Assembly (NCBI GenBank): GCA_035498555.1
Contig: DATKAB010000045.1
Span: 1-64,000, forward strand
Direction of reading: 5' to 3'
DNA: 64,000 bases
DNA from: Candidatus Sulfotelmatobacter sp.
GTDB taxonomy: Bacteria > Eisenbacteria > RBG-16-71-46
In this document: positions 38,080-62,270 of the stretch, in pieces
Layout: each line of letters begins with the position of its first letter
How positions within the stretch are numbered: the stretch's first letter is position 1
Translations under genes and position numbers: made by a program
Notes under the pieces: generated by a model
Told to the model about the DNA's origin: nothing
Databases searched by the model: none
Seen by the model: only the letters and a program-made list of their open reading frames with translations

Positions 38080-39660
38080 GTGCGAAGCATCCGCGTCCTG
38101 CGAAACGTCGTCACCAACTACCTGCGCCTGCTCCTCGGCGGCCTGATGGGCTTCCTCATCACGCCGGTGATGGTGCATCTGCTGGGCGATCGCGACTACG
38201 GGCTGTGGATCACGGTCTTCTCGTTCACGGGCTACTTCGGCCTGATCGATCAGGGCATCCGGCCGTCGCTGGTGCGCTACGTCTCGCGCGACCACGCCCG
38301 CGGCGACCGCGAGGCGTTGGAGCGGACCATCAGCAGCGCGCTCGGGCTGTTCTCGATCGCCGGCGTGCTGACGCTGCTGGTCACGGTGGTGGTGGCGAGC
38401 GAGTTCCACCGCTGGTTCTCGGTGAGCGCGATCCCGGGGCGAGAGCTGTTCGAGGTCGTGATGATCGCCGGGGGATCGGTGGCACTCGGATTCCCGCTCG
38501 GCGTGTTCGGCGCCGTGCTTTCAGGGCTTCAGCGCTATGACCTCGGCAACGCGATCGGCATGGGCATCGCGGTCCTGCGCGCGCTGGTGTTCGTCACGGT
38601 GCTGCGCATGGGCGGCGGCCTGGTGCAGCTGGCATGGGCGTCGCTGATCATGAACCTGCTGGGTCACGCGCTCTCGATGGCGCTGGCGCTCCGGCTGCTG
38701 CCCGGTCTTCATCTGGGCCCGAGCCGGGTGGACCGCGCGACCTTGCGCGTGATCGGCGCCTACAGCGGGGTGGCGTTCGTCGGCGCGCTGGCCTCGAGCA
38801 TCGCCTTCCAGACCGACGCGCTGGTGATCACCGCCTTCCTCAGCGCCGCGGCGGTGACGCCGTTCGCGCTCGCTGCCGGCCTGGTCGAGAACGTGCGCTC
38901 GATGGTCTACTCGGCCACGTTCGTGCTGTCGCCCACCGCCAGCGAGATGGAGACCCGCGGGGAGACTACCCAGCTCCACGCCATGCTGCTCGCCGGCGCC
39001 AAGTACTCGGTGCTGCTGAGCTGGCCGGTGCTGTTCGGACTCCTGATCTTCGGCGAGAACTTCCTGGTCACCTGGGTGGGGCCGAAGTACGCCACCGCGC
39101 ATTCCTGGCTGCGATTGTTCACCGCGCACGGCCCGCAGGCCTCGGCCGGGCAGGTCCTGGCGATCCTGACGCTGCCGACGCTGCTGTCGCTGCCGCAATC
39201 CACGGCTTCGGCGTTGCTGTTCGGGGTGAGCCGGCACCATGGCGTGGTGGCGCTCTCGCTCGCCAACGCGCTCGTCAACCTCGGGCTGTCGCTGTGGTGG
39301 GTGCATCCCTGGGGCCTGGCCGGCGTCGCGCTCGGGACGGCGGTGCCGCTCGCGCTGCTCTCGGGAGTCGCGACCGCGGTGTACGCGTGCCGCGAGCTGG
39401 GACTCTCGGTGGCACGCTACCTCTGGGAGGGCATGGGGCGAGCCGGGATCGCGAGCCTCGCGTTCCTCCTGCCGGCCGCCGCGGTCAACGCGCTGTGGCA
39501 TCCGATGGGGTGGATTCCTCTCGCGCTGTCGGGCGGAGGCTGCTGGCTGGTGTTCGCGGCGTGCGCCTGGTGGGGGGTGGTGGATCCGCCCGAACGTGCG
39601 CGCTGGGGGCGCATGCTCTCGGGTCTGATCGGACGGGCGCCGGTGGCGGGAGGCGCATGA
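38080..39660 (+). CDS. Polysaccharide flippase (Wzx/MATE-like)
   Basis: 526 residues with about 12-14 hydrophobic helices. The start VTNYLRLLLGGLMGFLITPVMVHLLGDRDYGLW is typical of the polysaccharide transporter family that flips lipid-linked repeat units across the inner membrane. It starts at GTG with GGAGG nine bases upstream, after a 79-base gap from the kinase gene, so it may begin a new translational unit. Its stop overlaps the next gene by four bases. Together with a polymerase-like protein (41656) and Wzz it indicates a Wzx/Wzy-dependent pathway. Confidence 0.9.
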   Translation: MRSIRVLRNVVTNYLRLLLGGLMGFLITPVMVHLLGDRDYGLWITVFSFTGYFGLIDQGIRPSLVRYVSRDHARGDREALERTISSALGLFSIAGVLTLLVTVVVASEFHRWFSVSAIPGRELFEVVMIAGGSVALGFPLGVFGAVLSGLQRYDLGNAIGMGIAVLRALVFVTVLRMGGGLVQLAWASLIMNLLGHALSMALALRLLPGLHLGPSRVDRATLRVIGAYSGVAFVGALASSIAFQTDALVITAFLSAAAVTPFALAAGLVENVRSMVYSATFVLSPTASEMETRGETTQLHAMLLAGAKYSVLLSWPVLFGLLIFGENFLVTWVGPKYATAHSWLRLFTAHGPQASAGQVLAILTLPTLLSLPQSTASALLFGVSRHHGVVALSLANALVNLGLSLWWVHPWGLAGVALGTAVPLALLSGVATAVYACRELGLSVARYLWEGMGRAGIASLAFLLPAAAVNALWHPMGWIPLALSGGGCWLVFAACAWWGVVDPPERARWGRMLSGLIGRAPVAGGA

Positions 39661-40649
39661 TGCGGGTCAGTGTGCTGCTCAGCGCCTGGAACGCCGAATG
39701 GTGCATCGAGCGTTCGCTCGACAGCGTATTCGCGCAGACGCGCGCCGCCGACGAAGTGGTGGTGGCCGACGACGGCTCCGAGGACGGCACCGTCGCATTG
39801 ATCGAGCGCCGTTATGGCACGCGCGTGCGTGTACTGAGACTCCCGCATCGCGGGCTGACCCCCAGCCGCCGTGCTTCGTTCGAGGCCGCGACCGGCGACT
39901 GGCTGGCCGTGCTCGACGCCGACGACTGGTGGGAGCCCGCGAAGCTCGCGCGACAGGTGGCGTTCCTGGAGGCCCACCCGGAGCTCCGCTGGTGCGGGAC
40001 CGACGGCGTCTACGTCTCGGCCGAAGGCGTGATCCGCGACTCGTGGTTCTCGGACTATTTCCATCCGGTGCACGAGCTGCACGGCGATCTGCTGCCGCTG
40101 CTGATCGAGCGCTGTTTTCCGCTGGTGAGCAGCATGCTGATCGAGCGGGAGGCCTACGCGGCGTCGGGTGGGTACGATCTCGCGATTCCCTATTCGCAGG
40201 ACTACGCGCTGTGGCTCAAGCTGGCCTCGCGCCATCCGGGGGGCATGCTGGCGGAGCCGCTGATCCACTACTGGTCGAGTGCCGGTCAACTCTCGCGGCG
40301 GCTCGAGCCCCGTTATCGCGACGATCTCGCGCTGATGCGGCGCGTGGCGAACGGCGAGTTCCGGCGCGATCCCGGGCTGCAGCGGCGGGGCGCCGAACGC
40401 GCCGCGGCGATCGCGTTCGACCTCGCCATCGTCTGCCTGCGTGATGGGCGCGTGGACGAGGCTCGCGCGCTGCTCGCCGACGCGCGCCGCCACGGTCCGT
40501 TGCGGCGGCGGGTGCTGGCGTGGGGTGGCAGCCTCGCGCCTCGAGCCGCGCTCCGGCCGCTGATGCGATCGGGGCTGCTCAAGCGCGCGGTGGGAGGGGC
40601 GCGTGCCGGCTCGCCCCGCATCGCCAACTCGCCCGAGGCGGCGCCGTGA
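39657..40649 (+). CDS. Glycosyltransferase family 2
   Basis: 330-residue GT-A fold glycosyltransferase, predicted to add a sugar to the lipid-linked repeat unit. The N-terminal SVLLSAWNAEWCIERSLDSV and VVVADDGSEDGT form the nucleotide-sugar site, and LDADDWW near residue 85 holds the metal-binding DxD. The sequence GYDLAIPYSQDYALWLKLA holds a probable catalytic Asp. ATG 39657 overlaps the flippase stop; a second ATG follows immediately. The C-terminal third is helical and poorly conserved. Donor and acceptor unknown. Confidence 0.9.
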   Translation: MMRVSVLLSAWNAEWCIERSLDSVFAQTRAADEVVVADDGSEDGTVALIERRYGTRVRVLRLPHRGLTPSRRASFEAATGDWLAVLDADDWWEPAKLARQVAFLEAHPELRWCGTDGVYVSAEGVIRDSWFSDYFHPVHELHGDLLPLLIERCFPLVSSMLIEREAYAASGGYDLAIPYSQDYALWLKLASRHPGGMLAEPLIHYWSSAGQLSRRLEPRYRDDLALMRRVANGEFRRDPGLQRRGAERAAAIAFDLAIVCLRDGRVDEARALLADARRHGPLRRRVLAWGGSLAPRAALRPLMRSGLLKRAVGGARAGSPRIANSPEAAP

Positions 40650-41659
40650 GCGCGCCGCTCGAATTCGCGGTGGCGATTCCGGCGCACGACGGGCTGCCGG
40701 ACGTGCTCGAGGCGGTCGAATCCGCGCTGGCGCAGAAGCTCCCGCCGCGCGAGATCGTGGTGATCGACGACGCCTCGAGCGACGGCACCGGCGCGGCGAT
40801 CGAGGCACGCTTCGGTTCGCGCGTGCGCGTGGCGCGGCGCGAGCTGGGAAGCGCGGCTGCCGCCCGCAATGCCGCCTGGCGCGAAAGTCGGGCGCCATGG
40901 GTCGCGTTCCTCGACGCCGACGACCTCTGGTATCCGGACAAGCTCGCGGTTGCCGCCGAACACCTGGGCGCCGTGCCCGAAGCCGCCTGGTTTTTCAGCG
41001 ACGGCGCGTTCCGCACGCTCGAGGGGGCGTTGCATCCTTCCTGGCTCTCGATGTGGGCGGATCTCGAGGACGACTACGTCGGACGACCGGTCGCCGCGCT
41101 GATCGAGGTGAACTTCATCCTCACCTCGTCGGTGGTGGTGAAGCGCGAGCTGCTCGAGGCCACCGGCGGGTTCGACACGCACCTGAGCCACGCCGAGGAC
41201 CTCGATCTCTGGATTCGCCTTGCGCGGCGTGCGACGGTCGCGGCCAGCGCTCGCTCGCTGGTGCGCTACCAGCATCGCGCTGGCGGGCTGACGCGCCAGC
41301 TCGGCGCCCGACTGATGGGAGACGTCACCCTGTTCTCGCGCCTTGCGGAAGACCGCGAGCTCGCACCCGGGCTGCGCCGGCGCGCGCGCCATCGCGCGGC
41401 GCTCGCGCGCTACAAGCTGGCGGTGGCGGCCCTGCGCGAAGGCCAGCCGGCCGCGGCGCGCGGCCATCTTTCCGGCGCGTGGCTGTTCCCCGAGCGGGCG
41501 CTGCCGGTGTCGCTGCTGGCCATGGCCAGCCTGCTTCCGCCGTCGCTGCTGGGTCGGCTCAGACGACAGACCTGGGCGACGCGCCCGGTGGTGGCTCCCA
41601 TGGGCCGGCAGCGACGCGTGGCTCTGCGCAGCGCGGCCGCGGAAGGGGTGAAGTCGTGA
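40646..41659 (+). CDS. Glycosyltransferase family 2
   Basis: 337 residues from GTG 40646, which overlaps the previous stop (GTGA). GT-A fold: FAVAIPAHDGLPDVLEAVES, VVIDDASSDGT and LDADDLWYPDKL (DxD), then FDTHLSHAEDLDLWIRLA with the expected catalytic acid. It is similar to the neighbour at 39657 in layout but diverged, suggesting an old duplication with a different linkage. Longer in-frame starts lie inside the upstream gene and are not supported. Substrate unknown. Confidence 0.9.
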   Translation: MSAPLEFAVAIPAHDGLPDVLEAVESALAQKLPPREIVVIDDASSDGTGAAIEARFGSRVRVARRELGSAAAARNAAWRESRAPWVAFLDADDLWYPDKLAVAAEHLGAVPEAAWFFSDGAFRTLEGALHPSWLSMWADLEDDYVGRPVAALIEVNFILTSSVVVKRELLEATGGFDTHLSHAEDLDLWIRLARRATVAASARSLVRYQHRAGGLTRQLGARLMGDVTLFSRLAEDRELAPGLRRRARHRAALARYKLAVAALREGQPAAARGHLSGAWLFPERALPVSLLAMASLLPPSLLGRLRRQTWATRPVVAPMGRQRRVALRSAAAEGVKS

Positions 41660-43095
41660 GTGTCGAGCCTCGCGGGCGCCCGATCACGACCATCGAGCAG
41701 GCGCGCACCGACGCGCAGCGTCAGGCGCGCAGCTTCTCGAGCGTGATCGTGCTGATGGTGGGGATTGCGCTGGCGGTGCTGGTGGTCGGGGCCTACGTGT
41801 TCCTCGACTACCACCTGCAGCAGGATCCTCATCGGCTGGTGAAGCTCACGGTCGGCGGCTCGCTGCTGGCGTCCATTCTGCTGGTGCCGCACGTCGGGCT
41901 GTTCACCGTGCCGCTGCTCACCCCGTTCATCCTCTGGCTGCCGAAGATGCCGATTCCGGGCGTGAACACGCTCAACATCCTGATGGTCTCGGTGTTCTTC
42001 AGCTTCACCCTGCCCCGGGTGCTCCAGCACCAGCCGGTGTTCCGCAACGGCGCGGTCGGCTGGTGCCTGCTCGGCATCCTCGGGCTCGCCGGCATTTCCA
42101 TCTTCCGCGGCGAGGCCTATCCCACGGGGTACGAGTACGACGCCGGCAAGGCCGGCATCGAGCTGTTTCGAACCGCGATGTGCTTCAGCGTGTTCTTCAT
42201 CGCACTCGCCATGATCCGCGGTGATCGTCAGCGTCGATTGATGACCTGGGCGGTGGTGCTCGGCCTGATGGCCGAGGCGCTGATGACCATCAAGATGGGC
42301 CGCAACTTCCGCGGCCGTGCCAGCGGCTCGATCTCCCAGCCCAATGATCTGGGGGCGTTTCTGGCGATGTTCACGGCCTTCGCGGCCGCGGCGTTCTTCG
42401 GCTTCCGGCGGTGGTGGGCGAGGGGCATCGTGGCGCTGGCGGTGCTGTCCGGCTGCGCGGCCGAAGTGCTCACGGTGTCGCGCGGCGGCATCCTCGCGCT
42501 GGGGCTGGCGCTCGGCTACGTGGCGCTGCGGTCGTCGAGGGTGCTGAGCGTGCTGCTGCTGGTCGCGGTGATCAGCAGCCCGGCCTGGGCGCCCGACTTC
42601 CTCAAGGAGCGCGTGGTGGGAACGCGAGTGCAGAGCGAGGACTCGGACGAAGCCGAGCTGGAGAATTCGTCCGCCGAGCGCGTGGCGACCTGGAAGGCGA
42701 TCGGCGACCTGCTCGCCGACCACCCGATCGAAGGCGTGGGATTCACCGGATTGAACAACGTGCTGGCCATGATCAGCACCACTCAGGCACTCGACATCAA
42801 GGACTCGGCCCACAACAGCTACCTGCGCTTCCTCGGCGAGATGGGAATCGGCGGCCTCGCGCTGTTCCTGTGGACATTGTGGACCTGCTGGTCGCTGGGC
42901 GCGACCGGCATGCGGGTGGCCGGGGACCATTTCAGTCGCCAGCTCGCGCTTGGCCTGTGCGGCGCGACGCTGGCCATGGCGGTCTCCTGCATGTTCGGCG
43001 ACCGATTCTTTCCGGTCACGCTGGGCGGCAATTTCTGGGTGGCCGCTGCGCTGGTGACCGACGTCGTGGACGAGGCGAAGAAGAGGCCGGCATGA
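41656..43095 (+). CDS. O-antigen ligase/polymerase-like membrane protein (Wzy_C)
   Basis: 479 residues from GTG 41656 (GTGA overlap), with about 12 helices. The large periplasmic loop region contains VATWKAIGDLLADHPIEGVGF and DSAHNSYLRFLGEMGIGGL, the Wzy_C-type pattern of O-antigen ligases and polymerases in which the His/Asn-containing loop takes part in glycan transfer. In this locus it most probably polymerises the exopolysaccharide repeat (Wzy role). A ligase role is also possible. Confidence 0.87.
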   Translation: MSVEPRGRPITTIEQARTDAQRQARSFSSVIVLMVGIALAVLVVGAYVFLDYHLQQDPHRLVKLTVGGSLLASILLVPHVGLFTVPLLTPFILWLPKMPIPGVNTLNILMVSVFFSFTLPRVLQHQPVFRNGAVGWCLLGILGLAGISIFRGEAYPTGYEYDAGKAGIELFRTAMCFSVFFIALAMIRGDRQRRLMTWAVVLGLMAEALMTIKMGRNFRGRASGSISQPNDLGAFLAMFTAFAAAAFFGFRRWWARGIVALAVLSGCAAEVLTVSRGGILALGLALGYVALRSSRVLSVLLLVAVISSPAWAPDFLKERVVGTRVQSEDSDEAELENSSAERVATWKAIGDLLADHPIEGVGFTGLNNVLAMISTTQALDIKDSAHNSYLRFLGEMGIGGLALFLWTLWTCWSLGATGMRVAGDHFSRQLALGLCGATLAMAVSCMFGDRFFPVTLGGNFWVAAALVTDVVDEAKKRPA

Positions 43096-44102
43096 GCGGG
43101 CGGTTGCTACGCTGGCTTCTGAGCCTGTGGCCGCGCTCATCGCGGAGCGTGCCGAGGTTGACGATCGTGCGCCATCACCGCGTATACGACGACCATGAGC
43201 GGCCACTCTACCGGTTGGGGGTGAGCGCCTCGGTTCTCGAGTCACAGCTGCGCGCGCTGTCGGTTGCCGGCCTCGCGCCGCTCACGGTGAGCGAGGGCCT
43301 CGCGCGGCTCGCCGAGTCGCGCACCGGCCACTGGGTGGCGATGAGCTTCGACGACGGTTACGCCGATAACGTGTCGCGGGCGCTTCCGCTGCTGAAGGCC
43401 GCGGGAGCGCGAGCCACCTTCTATCTCACCGCGGGATGGATCGACGCTCGCCGGCCCGCCTGGTGGGACGAACTGGCGTACGCGCTCGAGCACGCGCGGG
43501 TTCCCGAGTGTCGCTGGACGTCCGATCAGGGGCGGGTCGTGTCGCTGCGGCTCGCGACTCCGCGGGACCGCGCCGATTCGTTGAGGAAGCTCTTGCCCGA
43601 AATGAGAGTGCCGACCGAGGCTCGCGCCCGATCACTCGAGCGCCTGCGCGAAGCCACGGCCGCCGCCGGCGAAGCGCCCTGCGAGTTCGCCGACTGGAGC
43701 GAGGCCGCGCGGCTGCTCGAAGCCGGCATGGAGATCGGCGCCCACACGCTCACCCATCCCCATCTGAGTCTGCTCGATCCGGCCGGGCAGCGACGCGAGA
43801 TCGAGGGCTCGATCCGCCTGATCGAATCGCGGCTCGGAAGCCCGCCGACCGGATTCGCATACCCGGGCGGCGATCTCGACGAGCGCTCGGTCGCGATCGT
43901 CCGCGACGCGCGGCTGGCACACGCGGTCACGACCTCGCGCGGCGACGTCACCCCGGGCGCGGATCGGCTGCGGCTCCCGCGCCGCGGGCTGTCGGAGGGC
44001 GCCTGCCTCGGACCCACCGGCGTCTTTTCGACGCGTCTCACGCTCGCCGAGGTGCGCGGGGCCTTTGACGGGCTGCGCTCTCGCGTGGAGGCTGCGGCAT
44101 GA
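43092..44102 (+). CDS. Polysaccharide deacetylase
   Basis: 336-residue CE4-type deacetylase. The NodB domain motifs are SFDDGYADN (metal Asp near residue 93) and HTLTHPHLS (the two metal His), with FAYPGGDLDE as motif 3. No signal peptide is evident; the N-terminus is basic with a short hydrophobic patch. Exosortase-linked loci often include such a deacetylase (the XrtA-associated type), so it may remove acetyl groups from the exopolysaccharide or a precursor. ATG 43092 overlaps the previous stop. Confidence 0.9.
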   Translation: MSGRLLRWLLSLWPRSSRSVPRLTIVRHHRVYDDHERPLYRLGVSASVLESQLRALSVAGLAPLTVSEGLARLAESRTGHWVAMSFDDGYADNVSRALPLLKAAGARATFYLTAGWIDARRPAWWDELAYALEHARVPECRWTSDQGRVVSLRLATPRDRADSLRKLLPEMRVPTEARARSLERLREATAAAGEAPCEFADWSEAARLLEAGMEIGAHTLTHPHLSLLDPAGQRREIEGSIRLIESRLGSPPTGFAYPGGDLDERSVAIVRDARLAHAVTTSRGDVTPGADRLRLPRRGLSEGACLGPTGVFSTRLTLAEVRGAFDGLRSRVEAAA

Positions 44103-45229
44103 GCGCGCGCCCGGTTCGGCTCCTGTTCGTGGTCGGCAATTTCGCCGCCGGTGGTGCGGAACGACACCTGCTCGAGCTGTGGTCGCGCATCGATCGCACG
44201 AAGTTCGCGGTCGAGATCGCCTGCTTTCGCGCCGAAGGCCGCTTCTGGCCGGACGTGAAGGCGCTGGGCTGGCCGGTCCACGAGCTGAAGGTGGGGAAGC
44301 GGGTCTACGACTGGACCGGGTTCCGCGGCCTGTTGCGACTGATCCGAGTCACGCGGCGGTCGAAGCCCGATGTGATTCATGGCTATCTGTTCGGCCCGAA
44401 CCTGTTCGCGGTGCTGGCCGGCCGCGCGGCCAGGGTTCCGGTGGTGGCGGTGGCCAAGCGCAACATCGATGCGTTCGAAACTCCACGCCAGGTTCGCGTC
44501 CAGCGCTGGGTGCACCGGAACGCCTCGCACGTCACTGCGGTGAGCGAGAAGGTGGCCGAGACCGTGGTGGCGATGGGGGTGCCGCGGGCTCGGATCACGG
44601 TGATCCCCAACGGCGTGGATCTCTCGCGATTCGCGCACGCGGGCGGCGACCGCGCGAGCCTGGGCGCTGCGAATGGCGAGCTCGTGATCGGCAGCGTGGG
44701 CTGCCTCGCGGCGCGCAAGGACTACGGCACGCTGCTCGAAGCGCTGGCGACGCTCGAACGCTCGGGACGTCGCTTCCACGCGGCGCTGGTCGGCGACGGC
44801 CCGGAGCGCGAGGCCCTCGAGCAGCGCGCGCGCGAGCTGGGAGTTTCGGCGCGCACCACGTTTCTCGGCGAGCGCGCGGATGTCGAGCGCCTGCTCCCGG
44901 CCATGGACGTGTTCGTGCTCTCCTCGCGCGAGGAGGGCATCCCCAACGCCCTGCTGGAGGCGATGGCCGCCGGGCGGCCGTCGGTGGCGACCGCGGTCGG
45001 CGGCACGCCCGAGGTGCTCGAGGACGGCGTCACCGGCTGGCTCGTGCCGCCTGCCGATCCGGCCGCGCTGGCGGCCGCGCTCGAGCAGACGCTGGCGGAT
45101 CCCGACGAGGCGCGCCGGCGGGGCGAGGCCGCGCGCCGTGCCACCGAGGAGAAGATGAGCATCGATGCCATGGTCAGGCGCCACGAGGAGTTCTACCGGC
45201 GAGCGGTCGACGGGGAGCGGCGGCCGTGA
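44099..45229 (+). CDS. Glycosyltransferase family 4
   Basis: 376-residue GT-B fold transferase. The N-terminal domain starts LLFVVGNFAAGGAERHLLEL; the C-terminal domain contains VIPNGVDLSRF, LVGDGPEREALEQ and the donor-binding motif SSREEGIPNALLEAMAAG with the conserved E-x7-E glutamates. It transfers a sugar from a nucleotide donor with retention. It sits in the run of four-base overlaps (ATGA). Donor unknown. Confidence 0.92.
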   Translation: MSARPVRLLFVVGNFAAGGAERHLLELWSRIDRTKFAVEIACFRAEGRFWPDVKALGWPVHELKVGKRVYDWTGFRGLLRLIRVTRRSKPDVIHGYLFGPNLFAVLAGRAARVPVVAVAKRNIDAFETPRQVRVQRWVHRNASHVTAVSEKVAETVVAMGVPRARITVIPNGVDLSRFAHAGGDRASLGAANGELVIGSVGCLAARKDYGTLLEALATLERSGRRFHAALVGDGPEREALEQRARELGVSARTTFLGERADVERLLPAMDVFVLSSREEGIPNALLEAMAAGRPSVATAVGGTPEVLEDGVTGWLVPPADPAALAAALEQTLADPDEARRRGEAARRATEEKMSIDAMVRRHEEFYRRAVDGERRP

Positions 45230-46461
45230 AATCGATCGCCTACGTCACCACCACCTTCCCGACTTTCGCCGCGTTCCTGGAAGGGGAAGTGGCGCGATTC
45301 CACCGCCGCGGCGCGCGCATCCGCGTGTTCACGCTGCGCCCGCTTCGGGGCAACTACCAGTCGGATCACGCCGCGCTGATTCCGCTCACCACCTTTGTCG
45401 GATCACCCTTCGATCTCCGCGCCTGGGTGGCGCTGTTCGCGTGGTCGCTGCGCCGGCCACGCGTGCTGTTCCCCGAATTCGCGCGGGTGATGTGGGCCTC
45501 GCGGGGATCGCTCTACGCGCTGGCCGGCCACCTCTTCTGGCTGCCGGCCGCGGCCCGCGTGGCGACGCTGGTCGAGCGGGAGAACCTCGAGCGCGTCCAC
45601 GGCGCGTGGGCGCATTTCCCGGCCACCGTGGCCTATCTCGCCGCGCGCCTGACCGGGCGGCGCTTCAGCCTCGCCGGCCACGCCGGTTCCGATCTCTATC
45701 GCACCCAGGCTTTTCTTCGCGAGAAGACGCTGGCGGCGGATTTCGTCACCACCTGCGTGCGCGGCAACCGGGACATGCTGCGCCAGCTGGCCGGCCCGGC
45801 GGCGCGCGTCGAGTGGATCTACCACGGCGTGGATCGTTCGCGCTTCAACGGCGCCGGCCGAGCGCGCGGCGCCGACCCGCTGCTGCTCGCGGTCGGCCGG
45901 CTGGCCGAGACCAAGGGCTTCGACACCGCGGTGCGAGCCCTCGGCGAGCTCAAGCGCCGCGGGCTGGTGCCACGCCTGCAGTTCGTGGGCGATGGTCCGG
46001 ATCGACCGCTGCTCGAGCGCCTGGCGCGCGAGCAGGGCGTCGCCGACCAGGTCGAATTCCGCGGCTGGCTCCAGCAGGGCGAGCTGCTGCCGCTCTACCA
46101 ACGCGCCTGGCTGCTGCTCGCGCCGAGCCGCGTGCTCGCCAACGGGCGGCGCGACGGCATTCCCAACGTGATCGTGGAGGCGCTGGCCATGGGCCTTCCG
46201 TGCGCCGGAACGCGCGCCGCGGGCCTCGAGGAGGCGATCACTTCGGGCGTGAACGGCGTGCTCGCGCCGCCCGACGACCCGGTGGCGCTCGCCGACGCGG
46301 TCGAGCCGCTGTTGCGCGATCCCTCGCGTCTCGATCGGATGAGCGAGGCGGCGCGCGGTCGCATCCTCAGCGAGTTCGACGCCGAGGCGAACTTCGAGCG
46401 GCTGTGGAACCTGTTCGAGACCGACGGGGCGTCCCTGAGCCCATCGGCCGCGGCGTCGTGA
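45226..46461 (+). CDS. Glycosyltransferase family 4 (EpsD/colanic-type)
   Basis: 411 residues from GTG 45226 (GTGA overlap). It begins IAYVTTTFPTFAAFLEGEV, the form seen in exopolysaccharide GT4 enzymes such as AmsK/WcaL. WIYHGVDRSRF, LQFVGDGPDRPLLERLA and GIPNVIVEALAMGLP mark the donor domain. It probably adds a hexose in repeat-unit assembly. Donor and linkage unknown. Confidence 0.9.
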   Translation: MKSIAYVTTTFPTFAAFLEGEVARFHRRGARIRVFTLRPLRGNYQSDHAALIPLTTFVGSPFDLRAWVALFAWSLRRPRVLFPEFARVMWASRGSLYALAGHLFWLPAAARVATLVERENLERVHGAWAHFPATVAYLAARLTGRRFSLAGHAGSDLYRTQAFLREKTLAADFVTTCVRGNRDMLRQLAGPAARVEWIYHGVDRSRFNGAGRARGADPLLLAVGRLAETKGFDTAVRALGELKRRGLVPRLQFVGDGPDRPLLERLAREQGVADQVEFRGWLQQGELLPLYQRAWLLLAPSRVLANGRRDGIPNVIVEALAMGLPCAGTRAAGLEEAITSGVNGVLAPPDDPVALADAVEPLLRDPSRLDRMSEAARGRILSEFDAEANFERLWNLFETDGASLSPSAAAS

Positions 46462-47606
46462 AGCGCATGCGCGTCCTGCACGTGATCGAGGCCATGCATC
46501 AGGGCGGCGCCGAGTCGCTGCTGGTCGAGCACGCCCGGCGCGCCGGGCCCGGCGTCGAGGTGTTGATCTGCGCGCTCAATCGCGGCGGGCCGGCGCTCGA
46601 GGCCGCGCGCGTCGCCGGAGCGCGGGTCTTCCTGCTCGAGAAGGGCGGCGCGCGCTGGAGCGGACTCCAGGCTCTGATCGCGCTCATGCGCCGGGAGCGC
46701 GTGGACGTGGTGAACGGCCACAATCCCACCGGGGGGCTCTACGGCCTCGCGGCGGCGCGTTGGAGTGGCGTTCCGGTCGGCATCCGCACCGAGCACAGCC
46801 TGCACGCCCCGGGCCGGCACTCGCCGATCTATCCGGCGCTGGAGCGCGCCGGCACCTGGATGGCGGATCGGGTCATCTGCGTCTGCGAGGCGGTGCGTGA
46901 GAGCCACGTCTCGCGGCTGGGCTGGGCGCGCGAGCGCTTCATCGTGATCACGAACGGGATCTCGGAAGCGCCCCCGGCACGTCCGCGCGAAGCGGTGCGC
47001 GCCGAGCTCGGGTTCGGCGCAGAGACGCCGCTGGTGATCGCGGTCGGCAGCCTGACCCGCCAGAAATCCCAGCACGTGCTGCTCGAGGCCATGGCGCGGC
47101 TCCAGCAACGCGAGGCGCGCCTGCTGCTCGCTGGCGAGGGCCCGCTGCGCGAGGACCTCGAGCGGCGCGCGCGCGAGCTGGCGCTGGGCCAGCGGGTGCG
47201 CTTCCTGGGCGCACGTCTCGACGTCGCCGATCTCTACGCGGCCTCGGACGTGTACGCGCTGCCGTCGCAGCGGGAAGGGCTGTCGATCTCGCTGCTGGAA
47301 TCCATGCGGGCGGGAATCCCGGCGGTCGCAACCCGAGTGGGTGGCAACGGCGAGGCGATCGAGGACGGCGTCAGCGGACGACTGGTTCCGGTTCACGACC
47401 CCGCGGGAATGGCCGCCGCGCTCGACGCGCTGATCGCCGACCGGGCCGGCGCGCGCGCGATGGGAGCCGCGGCCGAGAAGCGCTGGCGCTCGCGATTCAC
47501 CGCCGAGCGCATGGTGCGCGAGACCGAAGCGTTGTACCGCGAGCGCCTCGCGCGGCGCGCACCCGGCGAACGACGCGCGAGCGGCGAGGCGGAGCACGTC
47601 GCGTGA
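46458..47606 (+). CDS. Glycosyltransferase family 4
   Basis: 382 residues from GTG 46458 (GTGA overlap). GT-B motifs: VLHVIEAMHQGGAESLLVEH, VITNGISE, LLLAGEGPLREDLE and SQREGLSISLLESMRAGIP with the E-x7-E pair. The third consecutive GT4 gene, so at least five glycosyltransferases (two GT2, three GT4) plus a priming transferase imply a repeat unit of about five or six sugars, which is inference. C-terminus Arg/Glu rich. Confidence 0.9.
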   Translation: MKRMRVLHVIEAMHQGGAESLLVEHARRAGPGVEVLICALNRGGPALEAARVAGARVFLLEKGGARWSGLQALIALMRRERVDVVNGHNPTGGLYGLAAARWSGVPVGIRTEHSLHAPGRHSPIYPALERAGTWMADRVICVCEAVRESHVSRLGWARERFIVITNGISEAPPARPREAVRAELGFGAETPLVIAVGSLTRQKSQHVLLEAMARLQQREARLLLAGEGPLREDLERRARELALGQRVRFLGARLDVADLYAASDVYALPSQREGLSISLLESMRAGIPAVATRVGGNGEAIEDGVSGRLVPVHDPAGMAAALDALIADRAGARAMGAAAEKRWRSRFTAERMVRETEALYRERLARRAPGERRASGEAEHVA

Positions 47607-52140: not shown

Positions 52141-54292
52141 ATGGACCTCACTTCGTCCCCCGTCCAGATCAGTCTGGTGATGGCCAGCGCGCTGCTGGCC
52201 ACGGTGATCGGCGTGCTCGCCACGTTGCGCCGCGGCCACTGGCTGACGACGCTGCTGTTCGCCTCGGCGTTCCTGTCGATCGCCGCGTTCCAGACCGGGA
52301 CGCTCTTCATGCTCCAGGCCGGCGACGCCACTTCGGCGCGCAACTGGGCCACCTATCTGGCCGGAGTCTCGGCGCTGGCCTCGTGGCTCTGGCTGTCGCT
52401 GAGCGTGGTGCTGGCCCGGACCGATCCGTGGGAGCAGATCCGCAATGCGGCCGCCTATCTGGCGCTCGCCCTGATCGGCTGCGTGGCGATGTTCTCGCTC
52501 GCCGTCAATCCCAGCATCGTCCACCAAGTGGTCGGGCTCGGCGGGAACGCGGTGATCCTGCTCGGCGGCATGGGCAAGGTCTACCTGATGTACCTGGTGG
52601 TGGCGATGGTGGCGGTGCTCATGAATCTGGAGCGCATGCTCCGCTCCGCCACCGCCACATTGCAGCGACGGTTGCGGGCCATGGCGCTGGCCTTCCTGGT
52701 GGCGATCCTGAGCGAGCTGCTGGTGGTGTCGGCCGGCCTGCTGTTCGGCGGCATTCGGGTCTCATGGCTGGCCGCGACCTCCGTGCCGCTGTTCGGTGCC
52801 GGCGTGGTCACGGCGCTGGCGCTGGCGCGCCGCCGGCTCTCCGACATGAGCGTGCCGCTGGCGCGTCCGGTCATCTACTACTCGTCGGTCTCGCTCACGC
52901 TGGCCGGCGCCTTCCTGCTCAGCATGGCGGTGCTCTCGAAGGTGCTGCCGGTCCTCACCCCGGAGTGGAAGCGCGTGGTGAGCCTGTGCTTCTACCTGCT
53001 GGTCGGCGGCGGCGGACTGCTGCTCACCGTCAGCCCGCGCAGCAGCCGCGCGATCAAACGCTTCATCGATCGAAACTTCTACGCCAATCGCTACGACTAT
53101 CGCCGCGAGTGGGAGCGGGTGAGCGGAGCGCTCACGCCGGGAACGCGACTCGAGGAGATCTCGCGCCAGGTGGAGCAGCTGGTCACGGCGGTGTTCGAGC
53201 CCCATCGCGTCGCGGTCTACCTGCTCGACGAAGCCGATGGCGTGCTGCGCCGGATCCATGGGCCCGCGGCGATGCCGTCCCAGCTCTCGGCGGACAACCC
53301 CTTGATGATCGAGATGACCCGCACCCGGCGGCCGGTGGTGTTCGATCGGCTCTCGAGCGATCTCGACCTGATCCCGGTCGCGGCCGAGAATCGCGACGCC
53401 ATCCGCGCGCTGGACGCCGCGGCCTGCGCGCCGCTCATGGTCGGCGATCGCCTGATCGGAGCGCTGTGGCTGTCCGCCAAGCGCACCGATGAGGACTACT
53501 CGGAGGAGGACGTCGAGTTCCTGGGCGCGATGTCGCGGCAGATCGCCGCGACGCTGTGGTTCGCGCGCCAGGCCGAGCAGCTGGCCGAGACCCGGCAGCT
53601 CGAATCGCTCAATCGGCTCGCGAGCTTCGTGCTCCACGACATCAAGAATCACATTTCGGGGCTTTCGCTGGTGGTCGAGAATGCACGCCGTCACATGAGC
53701 GATCCGGAGTTTCAGCGCGACGCCCTGGCGGTGGTCGAGCGCACGGTCGCGAGCCTCTCCGAGCTGATGCAGCAGGTGGCGAGCGTGGGGCGCAGTCTGG
53801 AAGTGCGCCCCGAGCCCTGCGACCTGCTCCAGCTGGTGGAGGAGTCGCTGGCCGGCGCCGGATTGCGGCGCGGCGAGCACGACGGCATCCAGGTCTCGGT
53901 CACCTGTCGCGCCGCTGAACAGGTGGTGCTGGACCGGCGCCAGATGAAGCGCGTGCTGACCAATCTGCTGACCAACGCGCGCGAGGCGCTGAGCGGTTCC
54001 GGTCACATCGACCTGCTCGCCGAGGTCGAGGCTCCCGAGAACGGCCGGGGCGGGCGCGTTCGCTTCGAGGTGCGCGACGACGGCCGCGGCATGAGCGAGG
54101 AGTTCATCCGCACCGCCTTGTTCCGGCCGTTCGCCACCACCAAGAGCGAGGGGCTGGGACTCGGTCTCGCCCAATCCCGCAGCATCGTCGAAGCGCATGG
54201 CGGTCGCATCCGCGTGGCCAGTCAGCCGGGCGACGGCACGCGCTTCGAGATCACGCTGCCGAACCAGGTCGCCGCCGTCGCCGAGGCCGGGC

Positions 54293-54303
<11 letters not shown>
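52141..54303 (+). CDS. prsK: PEP-CTERM system histidine kinase PrsK
   Basis: 720 residues. The N-terminal half has eight or so membrane helices and no periplasmic sensor domain. Then follow a GAF-like domain (about 340-480), the phospho-acceptor helix with His499 (FVLHDIKNH, the distinctive PrsK form) and a HATPase domain with N-box LTNLLTNAREAL, DDGRGMSEEF and GLGLGLAQS. This architecture and position match PrsK, the kinase paired with PrsR in exosortase/PEP-CTERM genomes. It should phosphorylate the regulator encoded next, with which it overlaps by 11 bases. The signal sensed is unknown. Confidence 0.93.
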
Positions 54304-55696
<1,393 letters not shown>

Positions 55697-57931: not shown

Positions 57932-60787
57932 TCAGCCCTTCCCGGCTCCCGACAGCGACTCGAGCACCGAACGGCAGCGAGCGCAGAGGCCGGCCTCCGA
58001 CACGTCGTCGCGGTGGTTCCAGCAGCGTTCGCATTTCCTGAAGCGATCGCCCGCCGGCCGCGCCATCGCCGAGAAGGCCGCCGCGCCGCCGCCGGCGGCC
58101 GCCGCCACTCGTTGCGGAGCGATCTCGAGCGCGGCCACCATCAGAAAGTCGCGCAGCTCGGGGGCAAAGCGCGAGAGCCAGCTCTCCGAATCGGGCGCCG
58201 ACAGCGTCACCGCCGCCTCCTGGGTGGTGGCGATGGTCTTGGCTGCGCGAAGCGGCTCGATCGCGCTGTTGACCACCGCGCGTACTTCCAGCAGCCGCTC
58301 CCACAGCGCGGGCTCCGCGGCATGCGCCGCGATCGGCCCGAGCACCGCCAGGTGCACGCTCTCCTGCTCGCGAACCAGGGCCGGATGGTGCTGCCAGACC
58401 TCCTCGGCGGTGAATACCAGCGCGGGGCCGGCCAGCACGCACAGGTCGTGAAGCGCGCGCCACAACACGGTCTGCGCGGAACGACGTGCCGGATCGTTGC
58501 GTCCCAGCGTGTAGAGCCGATCCTTCGCCACGTCGAGGAACGCGGCCGAGAGATGAACCGTGCAGACGTCGAGCAGCAGATCGAGGACGCGATGGAACTC
58601 GAGGCGTGAGTAGGCCGACCGCATCTGATCGACGCGACCCGCCAGAAAATCGTGAAACGCGCGGTCCACCTCGGTGAGCGCGGCGTGCGGCACCGAGTGC
58701 GCGGCCGGGTCGAAGTCGCTCAGGTTGCCGAGCAGGAATCGGAACGTATTGCGCACTTTCCGGTAGGCCTCCGCGACCCGCACCAGGATCTCATCACCGA
58801 CGCGGACGTCGCTTCGCCAGTCGGTGGCCAGCGCCCACCAGCGCACGATCTCCGCGCCCGAGCGTTTCACGATGTCCATCGGCGCGATCACGTTGCCCAG
58901 CGACTTGTGCATGGCGCGGCCCTGCGCGTCCAGCACCCAGCCGTGGGTGTAGACCTCGGTGTAGGGCGGGCGGTCCGTGCAGCCGATCCCGACCATCAGC
59001 GACGAGTTGAACCAGCCGCGATGCTGGTCGGGTCCCTCGAGGTACGCCACGCCCTCGCCGGCCGCCGCACGCCGGAGTGCCTGATCGAGCCGCGGGGCGA
59101 GGTCGGGATGGGAGACGCGCACCGCCCGGTGCGTGCATCCGGAATCGAACCAGACATCGAGGATGTCGGTTTCCTTGCGAAACGGACCGGCGGCGCCACA
59201 GTGCTCGCACTTCATCCCCGCCGGCAGGAAGTCCTCGACCGGCTTCTCGAACCACGTGTCGGAGCCGCTCTGGCGCGTGATCTCCGCCGCCCGCGCCATG
59301 ACGCGGGGGTCGAGCAGCGCTTCACCGCAGCTCTCGCAGTAGACCGCCGGGATCCCGACGCCCCACGAACGCTGGCGGGACAGACACCAGTCGGGCCGCC
59401 CGCGCACCGATTCGCGAATCCGATTGCGGGAACTTCCCGGATCCCAGCTCACCGCGCGCTCGATGGCGTCCAGCGCGCGCTGCCGATGCGTCAACCTCGC
59501 GCCGCCCTCGAGCGGCTCCGGCGCATGATCAATGATCATGAACCATTGCTTGGTGGCGCGGAAGATCACCGGCTGGCGGCAGCGCCAGCAGTGCGGGTAG
59601 GAATGAGTGATCGTACCCTTCGACAGCAGCCGGCCGCGCTCGGCGAGCCAGGCGATGATGTCGTCGTTGACCTCGAGCACGCTCCGGCCGACGAACGGTT
59701 CGGCTCCCGCCGTGAATCGGCCGGCCTCGTCCACCGGACAGAGCACGCCGAGTCCGTGCTTCTGTCCGATCTGAAAGTCCTCCTTGCCGTGGCCCGGAGC
59801 GGTGTGAACGATGCCGGTGCCGTCTTCCATGCTCACGAACGGCGTGCCGTCCACCACCTGCGACTCGTTGCCCCACGGGCCTTCGAACACGAGCCCGACG
59901 AGGTCGCGCCCGGGAAGCTCCGCTTCGACGGTGGCGCCGGCGAGACCGGCCGCCTCCGCGAACGCCGCGGCGCGTTCCTTCGCCACCAGCAGGCGCCGCT
60001 CGCCATCGCGCAGTACCACGTAGGCCGAGCCGGGATTCACCATCAGGCCGAGATTGGCGGGCAGGGTCCAGGGCGTCGTGGTCCACGCCACCGCCGCCAC
60101 GCCGGGGAATCGCTTCAGTAGGCCGCCCTGGTCCCGGAGCAACGGGAACGCGACATGGATCGAAGGCGAGGCGTCATCCTGATACTCGATCTCGGCTTCG
60201 GCGAGGGCGGTGCGATCGGTGGGGCACCAGTGGATGGAGCGGAGCCCGCGCTGCACGTAGCCGCGGTCGGCGAGGCGCGCGAAGGTCTCGAGGATCGTGG
60301 CCTCGAAGTCCGAGCTCATGGTGAGGTAGGGGCGGCTCCAATCGCCCCACACTCCGAGGCGTTCGAACTCCTCGCGCTGGACGCCGACCCATTCCATCGC
60401 GTACTCGCGGCAGCGCCGGCGCAACGTCACACGATCGGGTTGCTGCTTCTTCTCGCGGAACTCCCGGCCCACCTGGATCTCGATCGGCATGCCGTGATTG
60501 TCCCAACCGGGCACGAACGGAGAATCGAAGCCGCGCATCGAAGCCTGCCGCACGGATGCGTCCTTCCAGATCTTGTTCGCGGCCGTTCCCATGTGGAGGT
60601 GGGCATTCGAATAGGGCGGACCGTCGTGAAGGATCCAGACCGGCGAGCCCCGGCGCGCCGCGGCGAGCTTGCTCTCGATCTGCCGCTCCTTCCACCACCC
60701 GAGACGTGCCGGCTCTCGCTGCTGGAGATCCGCCTTCATCGGGAACTCGGTGCTCGGCAGGTTCAGCGTGTCGCGATAGCCGGCCAT
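57932..60787 (-). CDS. ileS: Isoleucyl-tRNA synthetase
   Basis: 951-residue class I synthetase. The HIGH motif is HLHMG (63-67) and the KMSKS motif is MHKSLGN (Lys628). The CP1 editing domain is present (VHTAPGHGKEDFQIGQKHGL), and a C-terminal zinc ribbon has KCERCW and LCARC. The start is ATG 60787 with GGAGG seven bases upstream. An open frame continuing to 61072 is not coding but the T-box leader. Expression should therefore follow uncharged tRNA-Ile. It charges tRNA with isoleucine in the cytoplasm; family assignment is certain. Confidence 0.97.
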   Translation of the reverse strand: MAGYRDTLNLPSTEFPMKADLQQREPARLGWWKERQIESKLAAARRGSPVWILHDGPPYSNAHLHMGTAANKIWKDASVRQASMRGFDSPFVPGWDNHGMPIEIQVGREFREKKQQPDRVTLRRRCREYAMEWVGVQREEFERLGVWGDWSRPYLTMSSDFEATILETFARLADRGYVQRGLRSIHWCPTDRTALAEAEIEYQDDASPSIHVAFPLLRDQGGLLKRFPGVAAVAWTTTPWTLPANLGLMVNPGSAYVVLRDGERRLLVAKERAAAFAEAAGLAGATVEAELPGRDLVGLVFEGPWGNESQVVDGTPFVSMEDGTGIVHTAPGHGKEDFQIGQKHGLGVLCPVDEAGRFTAGAEPFVGRSVLEVNDDIIAWLAERGRLLSKGTITHSYPHCWRCRQPVIFRATKQWFMIIDHAPEPLEGGARLTHRQRALDAIERAVSWDPGSSRNRIRESVRGRPDWCLSRQRSWGVGIPAVYCESCGEALLDPRVMARAAEITRQSGSDTWFEKPVEDFLPAGMKCEHCGAAGPFRKETDILDVWFDSGCTHRAVRVSHPDLAPRLDQALRRAAAGEGVAYLEGPDQHRGWFNSSLMVGIGCTDRPPYTEVYTHGWVLDAQGRAMHKSLGNVIAPMDIVKRSGAEIVRWWALATDWRSDVRVGDEILVRVAEAYRKVRNTFRFLLGNLSDFDPAAHSVPHAALTEVDRAFHDFLAGRVDQMRSAYSRLEFHRVLDLLLDVCTVHLSAAFLDVAKDRLYTLGRNDPARRSAQTVLWRALHDLCVLAGPALVFTAEEVWQHHPALVREQESVHLAVLGPIAAHAAEPALWERLLEVRAVVNSAIEPLRAAKTIATTQEAAVTLSAPDSESWLSRFAPELRDFLMVAALEIAPQRVAAAAGGGAAAFSAMARPAGDRFRKCERCWNHRDDVSEAGLCARCRSVLESLSGAGKG

Positions 60788-61075
60788 CGAAAACCTCCGC
60801 CGGGAAAATGAAAACGCCCCACCCGATTCCGGTTGGGGCGACGCAGGTCGCGGTGCCACCCAACTTCGCGCGCGCCTCGCGGCGCGAGCCTCGTGGACCG
60901 GGCGCGAGGCGCGGTCCGACCCATTTCGGCGGGCTTCCGTCCGAGCCTCAGGCGGCGCGTCGCGTCGCTTCGGTCGGCGGCTCGGGGGTGATGTTCGCCG
61001 CGCCGGTGGGTATCGGGCTTCCACCATCCCCGACTCGCTGGAACTCCGCACGCGGGTACTCGTCCCCGTCACAGC
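60788..61075 (-). promoter_or_regulatory. T-box riboswitch controlling ileS (ATC specifier)
   Basis: Minus-strand leader with all main T-box elements. The stem I base is GACGGGGACGAGTA (61070-61057). An AGCGAGTCGGGGATGGTGG-like distal region follows. The specifier ATC (Ile) is at 60992-60990 in GAACATCACC. The conserved T-box sequence GGGTGGCACCGCG lies at 60861-60849. A terminator hairpin at 60840-60815 (CGCCCCA/TGGGGCG) is followed by TTTTCATTTT, 18 bases before the ileS ribosome site. Uncharged tRNA-Ile should pair with the specifier and the T-box sequence and stabilise the antiterminator. It fills the gap between the M23 peptidase gene and ileS. Confidence 0.92.
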
Positions 61076-61115
61076 CTTGAATGCCGGGCGAAGCTGCCAT
61101 GCCCGGCGACCCGGG

Positions 61116-62270
61116 TCAAGGAGCGGCGTCCCTCCCCCGGGCCCGCGGGGCGGGGGCGGCGGGCGCCAGGTCGGCGATCAACAGCACCGCGTCCAGTGCG
61201 TGCGGCGGAGCCTCGCGACGAGCCAGGTCGGACGGGTCACGATCCGGGCTCGCCTGCCCGAGGATCTCGCGACACACCGAGCGGAACTGGCGGTCGGGCG
61301 CCGGCCGCGCCGGCAGCGCCGCGCCGATCATCTCGAGCCGGCGCAGGTCGCGCGCCAGCTCCTCCCAGCTCACCGTCTCTCCGGGGGTCGCTCGCGATCG
61401 TTCGGGCAGGAGGCCCGCCGCGATCAACGAATCGCGCAGGGTGAGGTCGGCTTCCGGGAGCAGGGTCCACTGATGGGCGCCCGCGACCGCCAGCATGCGC
61501 CACCATTCGGCGTGCCGCAGAGCGCTGGCCGGCGTGACCAGCGAATCGGCCAGGAGCCCGGCGTACGCCGCCCAGTCCCACCACGGCGCGAGCGAATCGG
61601 CGCGCGCCGCGGCCGGGAGGCGGTCCGCGACGAACGAGAGCGGGTCCACGACCCGCGTGTCCTGCCAGGGTGCGGAAGGATCGTCGGCCAGCCGGACCTC
61701 GAAATGGAGGTGCGGGCTGGTCGCGCGGCCGGTTCTCCCGACACGTCCGAGCACGCCGCCGGCCAGCACCGACTGGCCGGGGCGAACCCGGATCGTGCCG
61801 GCGGCGAGATGGGCGTAGACGCTGTAAGCGACCTGTCCGTCGCACAGGCGGTGCCCCAATACCACGTAGCGGCCGTAGCCGCTGTTGTAGCCGCGCCGCG
61901 GCGCCGCCACCACCAGCCCGGTGGCCGCCGCGCGAACCAGGTCGCCGCCGTGACCGCAACTGAGATCAGCGCCCTGATGCGTTCGAGTGCCGAGGTCGGG
62001 GCCACCGATGTTCCGGCTCAGTCGGTAGCCGGCGGAGGAGCCGGCAGCGGCCAGCTGGAAATCGCGGGCGTTGCCGACCGGATATCGCCACGCGCCGCTC
62101 CAGCACCAGCGGTCGGCCAGTTCGGCGGAAGCGTGCATCACGCCGCCGGTCGGAAGCGGCGGAACCGGTGCGATCTGCCCCCGGGCGTCGGGAGCGGAGC
62201 CGAGCACCGCCGCGCCTGCGAGCGCGACGCTCGCCCAGATCGCGTGACGGAGCCCGATCCGCCCCTTCAT
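61116..62270 (-). CDS. M23-family metallopeptidase (secreted)
   Basis: 384 residues from ATG 62270. A signal peptide (IWASVALAGAAVLGSAPDARG) is followed by an M23/LytM domain with HQGADLSCGHG (first His and Asp ligands) and SPHLHFEV (HxH); both zinc motifs are intact, so it probably cuts peptidoglycan cross-links or another Gly-rich peptide. The C-terminal 170 residues are helical and not recognised. The start overlaps the stop of the M6-type protease gene by four bases (62267-62270), so the two are coupled. A GC hairpin (61084-61107) lies just after the stop, before the T-box leader. Confidence 0.88.
   Translation of the reverse strand: MKGRIGLRHAIWASVALAGAAVLGSAPDARGQIAPVPPLPTGGVMHASAELADRWCWSGAWRYPVGNARDFQLAAAGSSAGYRLSRNIGGPDLGTRTHQGADLSCGHGGDLVRAAATGLVVAAPRRGYNSGYGRYVVLGHRLCDGQVAYSVYAHLAAGTIRVRPGQSVLAGGVLGRVGRTGRATSPHLHFEVRLADDPSAPWQDTRVVDPLSFVADRLPAAARADSLAPWWDWAAYAGLLADSLVTPASALRHAEWWRMLAVAGAHQWTLLPEADLTLRDSLIAAGLLPERSRATPGETVSWEELARDLRRLEMIGAALPARPAPDRQFRSVCREILGQASPDRDPSDLARREAPPHALDAVLLIADLAPAAPAPRARGRDAAP

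Follow-up and report, generated by a model that had tools for sequence, protein, structure and literature searches.

Is the leader of ileS in a genome of the candidate phylum Eisenbacteria a T-box riboswitch, and if so, how did it come to stand before this synthetase? T-box surveys name Firmicutes, Actinobacteria, Chloroflexi, and Deinococcus-Thermus, along with a few deltaproteobacteria of the Geobacter type; they do not settle whether T-boxes are old or have been passed on by transfer (PMC2494555, PMC3766115). A sequence-only reading of the stretch analysed here (64,000 nucleotides, referred to as the window) had proposed a T-box upstream of ileS in an apparently Gram-negative, candidate-phylum host. 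It described T-boxes as mainly known from Firmicutes and Actinobacteria, with scattered occurrences elsewhere. The source genome is a metagenome-assembled genome (MAG) of 3.8 Mb in 219 contigs, and all genomes compared are metagenome assemblies. The proposed host is borne out: the nearest IleRS matches are Candidatus Eisenbacteria MAGs (63–69% identity), and the window encodes an AcrB-type RND pump together with a membrane-fusion protein, which fits a two-membrane envelope. The regulator is of a known kind, with what would be an established mechanism, in a phylum without an earlier record that we could find; a full-text search of open-licence papers returned no paper joining T-box and Eisenbacteria.

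The minus-strand T-box is flanked by a gene for an M23-peptidase-domain protein (end at 61116) and the ileS start codon, and all of the proposed elements are found there (Table 1). Stem I starts at about 61079 and reads, in order, GGC-UGU-GAC-GGGG, AGUA, the apical GGUG, GAA-C-AUC-A, CCCC, and the K-turn strand CGAGC. Its specifier, first read as ATC, is AUC for isoleucine and agrees with the regulated gene. The T-box sequence was also read correctly, and the terminator with its T-run does precede the ribosome site, with the Shine-Dalgarno sequence outside the hairpin (−18.9 kcal/mol, z = −3.65). The 3' strand of the antiterminator, CGCCCCAAC, is common to antiterminator and terminator, and relatives have the same competing layout. 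A TTGAC box followed 17–18 nt on by an xAxxxT-like element is present upstream of ileS in 16 of 16 host-family leaders examined, three of which are without a T-box sensor (G004, G008, and G012); a strict sigma-70 promoter scan found none. The false 95-residue N-terminal extension of IleRS foreseen earlier follows from an open reading frame that begins at a GTG (57932..61072, 1046 aa, versus 951 aa from the ATG at 60787), and automatic annotation may report these extra residues. The IleRS itself scores 758.8 bits against TIGR00392 (cut-off 621.4).

Table 1. Elements of the ileS leader and the gene that it precedes, in window coordinates.
Feature	Position	Strand	Basis
Putative promoter: TTGACC (61119-61114), 17 nt spacer, CAGCTT (61096-61091)	61091..61119	minus	box conserved in family
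Stem I with K-turn, AGUA/GAA specifier loop motif, apical GGUG loop	60981..61079	minus	RF00230 alignment and covariation
Specifier AUC (Ile) within GAA-C-AUC-A	60992-60990	minus	sequence
Stem II / IIA-B and stem III region	60865..60980	minus	RF00230 full-model alignment; conserved blocks in relatives
Antiterminator GUUGGG-UGGCACC-GCGAC-CUGC-GUCGC-CCCAAC (6 bp, UGGCACC bulge, 5 bp)	60832..60864	minus	covariation
T-box sequence GGGUGGCACCGCG	60861-60849	minus	sequence
UGGC, expected partner of tRNA 3' end	60858-60855	minus	sequence
Intrinsic terminator CGCCCCA-A-CCG-GAAU-CGG-G-UGGGGCG, then UUUUCAUUUU (U-tract)	60805..60840	minus	folding, relatives
Shine-Dalgarno GGAGG, outside terminator	60794..60798	minus	sequence
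ileS, isoleucyl-tRNA synthetase type 1, 951 aa, ATG at 60787	57932..60787	minus	TIGR00392, PDB match

The covariance-model search suggested as a check on the proposal gave a significant match to RF00230 over the full length of the model (positions 1–219) at 61081–60831 on the minus strand (53.9 bits, E 4.4e-11, local search), but below the Rfam gathering score of 93 bits, which is a curation cut-off for automatic listing and not a structural feature. In a search of the whole genome the same leader is the sole match at E ≤ 1 (E 7.6e-11). Because of this cut-off, a default gathering scan of the window lists two tRNAs and misses the T-box, and automatic annotation is therefore likely to miss it too. 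The best score among host-family members is 73.8 bits, and none reaches the gathering score. The low scores are probably due to the AU-rich consensus of RF00230, since the leader is about 73% GC, and they suggest that T-boxes of high GC content go undetected in other phyla. The whole leader, GC-rich as it is, folds no better than its shuffled versions (z = 0.69), so folding energy is uninformative here and the evidence comes from the covariance model and from comparison. The exact antiterminator geometry (6 pairs, UGGNANC, 5 or 6 pairs, loop) occurs once in the 64 kb, both strands included, and 0.0 times per 64 kb in 60 random sequences.

Leaders of related genomes, the other check suggested, agree with the proposal. 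ileS was found in 17 of the 20 host-family genomes sampled, and the same T-box leader precedes it in 14 of the 17 with an assembled ileS start: 13 have the full leader, and G016, whose leader lies at a contig edge, has the antiterminator and the terminator. In an alignment of 13 leaders, the antiterminator is paired in 99.3% of cells, and four pairs have changed on both sides (11 cells), giving compensatory variants such as GUUGGG/CCCAAC, GUCGGG/CCCGAC, and GCCGGG/CCCGGC; the covariation score exceeded that of every shuffle. Stem I is paired in 94.1% of cells and shows two-sided changes at five pairs. The specifier is AUC in 12 of the 13 leaders and AAC in G002, and the bulge is UGGC in the window genome (G000), G018, G019, and G015 and UGGU in the other nine. 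A pattern search of the host family for further T-boxes gave five more sites (in G003, G019, and G004), which on reading all lack a complementary 3' arm; therefore, ileS appears to be the only T-box target in the family. On this comparative sequence evidence, the ileS leader of the Eisenbacteria genome is a real, complete T-box.

The best reading of the leader is an ordinary transcriptional isoleucine T-box, with a mechanism taken from the known family, from which we infer tRNA binding and termination. Transcription would start just upstream of stem I, and the AUC of stem I would hold the anticodon of tRNA-Ile(GAU). The free 3' end of an uncharged tRNA would pair with the UGGC bulge, so that the antiterminator stands and ileS is transcribed; with a charged tRNA the terminator would form and transcription would halt before the ribosome site. 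We consider it highly probable that the account holds as a whole: an isoleucine T-box of this type, with the anatomy and conservation observed here, before a type 1 IleRS, the two probably acquired together, with three later deletions of the sensor. Points against this account are the score below gathering, the UGGC bulge versus A73, and the reliance on MAGs.

The second of these points concerns the tRNA. The tRNA-Ile(GAU) of six Eisenbacteria from other families has A73, and if the host tRNA is the same, the UGGC bulge of the window would face A73 with its C not pairing. Several searches of the host-family assemblies for tRNA-Ile(GAU) found none except a 5' half in G002; the gene is absent from the assemblies, probably together with the rRNA operons. 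In G002 (contig C135, L239 1501–1543), the rRNA operon spacer consists of this 5' half followed by an apparent 23S rRNA start, with no tRNA-Ala, and the same genome has the AAC specifier. Either the assembly joined operon copies here, or the gene is broken.

It could be argued that the leader is a T-box by descent that has drifted here and gives no tRNA-Ile response, being constitutive or partly terminated. Replacement of UGGU by UGGC, facing the A73 of relatives, would fit such drift, as would the erosion seen in sister genomes (sensor gone in G004, G008, and G012, AAC in G002, no U-tract in G015 and G017). We judge this unlikely: the remaining elements of the window leader are intact, the antiterminator pairing is perfect, and AUC is kept, while UGGC recurs in G018, G019, and G015 and so looks tolerated, not broken.

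A hairpin switch that works on translation or via Rho, not by intrinsic termination, is improbable to the same degree. G015 and G017 (leaders L132 and L130) keep the T-box and have, after the antiterminator, a very long hairpin (−56 to −61 kcal/mol) without a U-tract; expression may be stopped there in another way, or the means of stopping it may have been lost. Translational ileS T-boxes also exist in high-GC Actinobacteria (PMC7583486). The window hairpin, however, is followed by a U-tract and leaves the Shine-Dalgarno sequence outside, and its stem I is of the long kind found in transcriptional T-boxes (PMC7583486).

That the match is a chance product of GC-rich sequence, in a leader that is coding or unstructured, is almost certainly wrong: the whole-leader folding no better than shuffles and the reading frame open through the leader would suit it, but it is rejected on the covariation of antiterminator and stem I in 13 genomes, on a geometry absent from random sequence, on the full-length match (E 4e-11), and on stops in the leader frame of some relatives (G006, G018). 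A run of isoleucine codons, as in ribosome-dependent leader-peptide attenuation, was not seen when the leaders were read by eye.

For the origin of the T-box, the type of IleRS matters. PDB entries 8c8u–8c9d, which we take to be IleRS2, and 8c9e–8c9g, presumably IleRS1 of Priestia megaterium, distinguish the two types. The host-family IleRS is type 1, its best PDB match being IleRS 8c9e at 753.9 bits versus 296 for 8c9d, whereas an IleRS of another family of the phylum (L138) is type 2, with 834 bits to 8c8w versus 351 to 8c9f. Strong type 2 matches occur across most other families of the phylum. The exceptions are G036, which has a divergent type 1 IleRS and no T-box match, and a few genomes with a fragmentary match or none. 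No T-box was found in 27 other genomes of the phylum under stricter filters, with which weak matches can be lost. Judged from these sequences, T-box and type 1 IleRS go together in Eisenbacteria. Both types coexist in bacteria, according to PMC10485003, and ancient transfers of the two types are known (PMC4861432).

Because the host family combines type 1 with a T-box and the rest of the phylum is mostly type 2, the T-box leader and IleRS1 were probably acquired together, by exchange, on the branch to the host family. That the T-box tracks one IleRS type, with the change falling at a single family's boundary, favours its movement together with the gene. The reverse history, in which type 1 was kept in the host family and type 2 gained elsewhere, is possible. 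In two trees the host-family IleRS1 forms one clade on its own long branch outside Firmicutes, and Firmicutes as the donor is unsupported given this separate long branch. Among close IleRS1 relatives in Desulfobacterales, Aminicenantes, Myxococcota, and one Syntrophomonadaceae (L003–L006, L008–L011), no T-box was found at E 0.01; another Syntrophomonadaceae (L014) has one.

T-boxes outside the phylum were also observed in other settings. Matches in G065 (C4:21634-21867) and G098 (C1:5152432-5152706) lie directly upstream of type 2-like IleRS genes (ORFs of 1110 and 1199 aa, each about 30% identical to the query), and T-boxes thus occur with both IleRS types. The matches in G058, G061, G085, and G092 do not adjoin ileS of the same genome.

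In G004, G008, and G012 the sensor is absent, and the promoter, a terminator-like hairpin, and ileS remain. The distance from the promoter box to the end of the ileS start codon is 112–138 nt in these three versus 336–468 nt in the others, and the G004 leader also retains ~40 nt from the start of stem I. The hairpin region is more stable than shuffles in G008 (z −2.57); in G004 and G012 it folds no better than shuffles. The three genomes do not group in the family tree, and three changes are needed, also throughout the bootstrap range; two of the three losses are forced by well-supported branches. Internal deletion of the sensor forms part of the best explanation. Assembly error is possible in single MAGs but unlikely, because the breakpoints differ in three genera. 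The sensor-less leaders are, in effect, natural deletion experiments. A more specific scenario can be proposed, in which IleRS1 and riboswitch were exchanged jointly, three lineages dropped the sensor and keep promoter and terminator, ileS there would be read through a permanent terminator, and UGGC would work despite an A-C mismatch; in its entirety we regard this as doubtful.

The closest known systems are the Firmicutes ileS T-boxes (RF00230; for example, upstream of ileS in many Bacillus loci, L015–L081), which share the order of parts, the UGGN antiterminator bulge, and the gene, as well as a long stem I and an isoleucine specifier, as known for the T-box family. The window T-box differs in its much higher GC content, UGGC instead of UGGU, and a score below the cut-off; its host lies outside the recorded phyla, and its IleRS is not nested among those of Firmicutes. 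The ileS T-boxes of Deinococcus radiodurans and Dehalococcoides (PMC2494555), likened here by description, are likewise outside Firmicutes and Actinobacteria, though in different phyla. Actinobacterial ileS T-boxes (Mycobacterium, Nocardia) are alike in isoleucine specificity, gene, and high-GC host, but they are translational and mostly have a short stem I, in contrast to the long stem I and U-tract terminator of the window (PMC7583486). Further interest lies in the tie to a probable enzyme exchange, in sensor deletions that recur, and in signs that the Rfam cut-off hides GC-rich T-boxes. The sequence-only reading had not noted the sub-threshold Rfam score, the association with a change of IleRS type, or the sensor losses among relatives.

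Elsewhere in the window, positions 38634–47606 and 52141–55696 encode glycosyltransferases and, next to a PEP-CTERM-box response regulator (TIGR02915, 567.7 bits), a GAF sensor kinase; this part looks like an exopolysaccharide/exosortase region.
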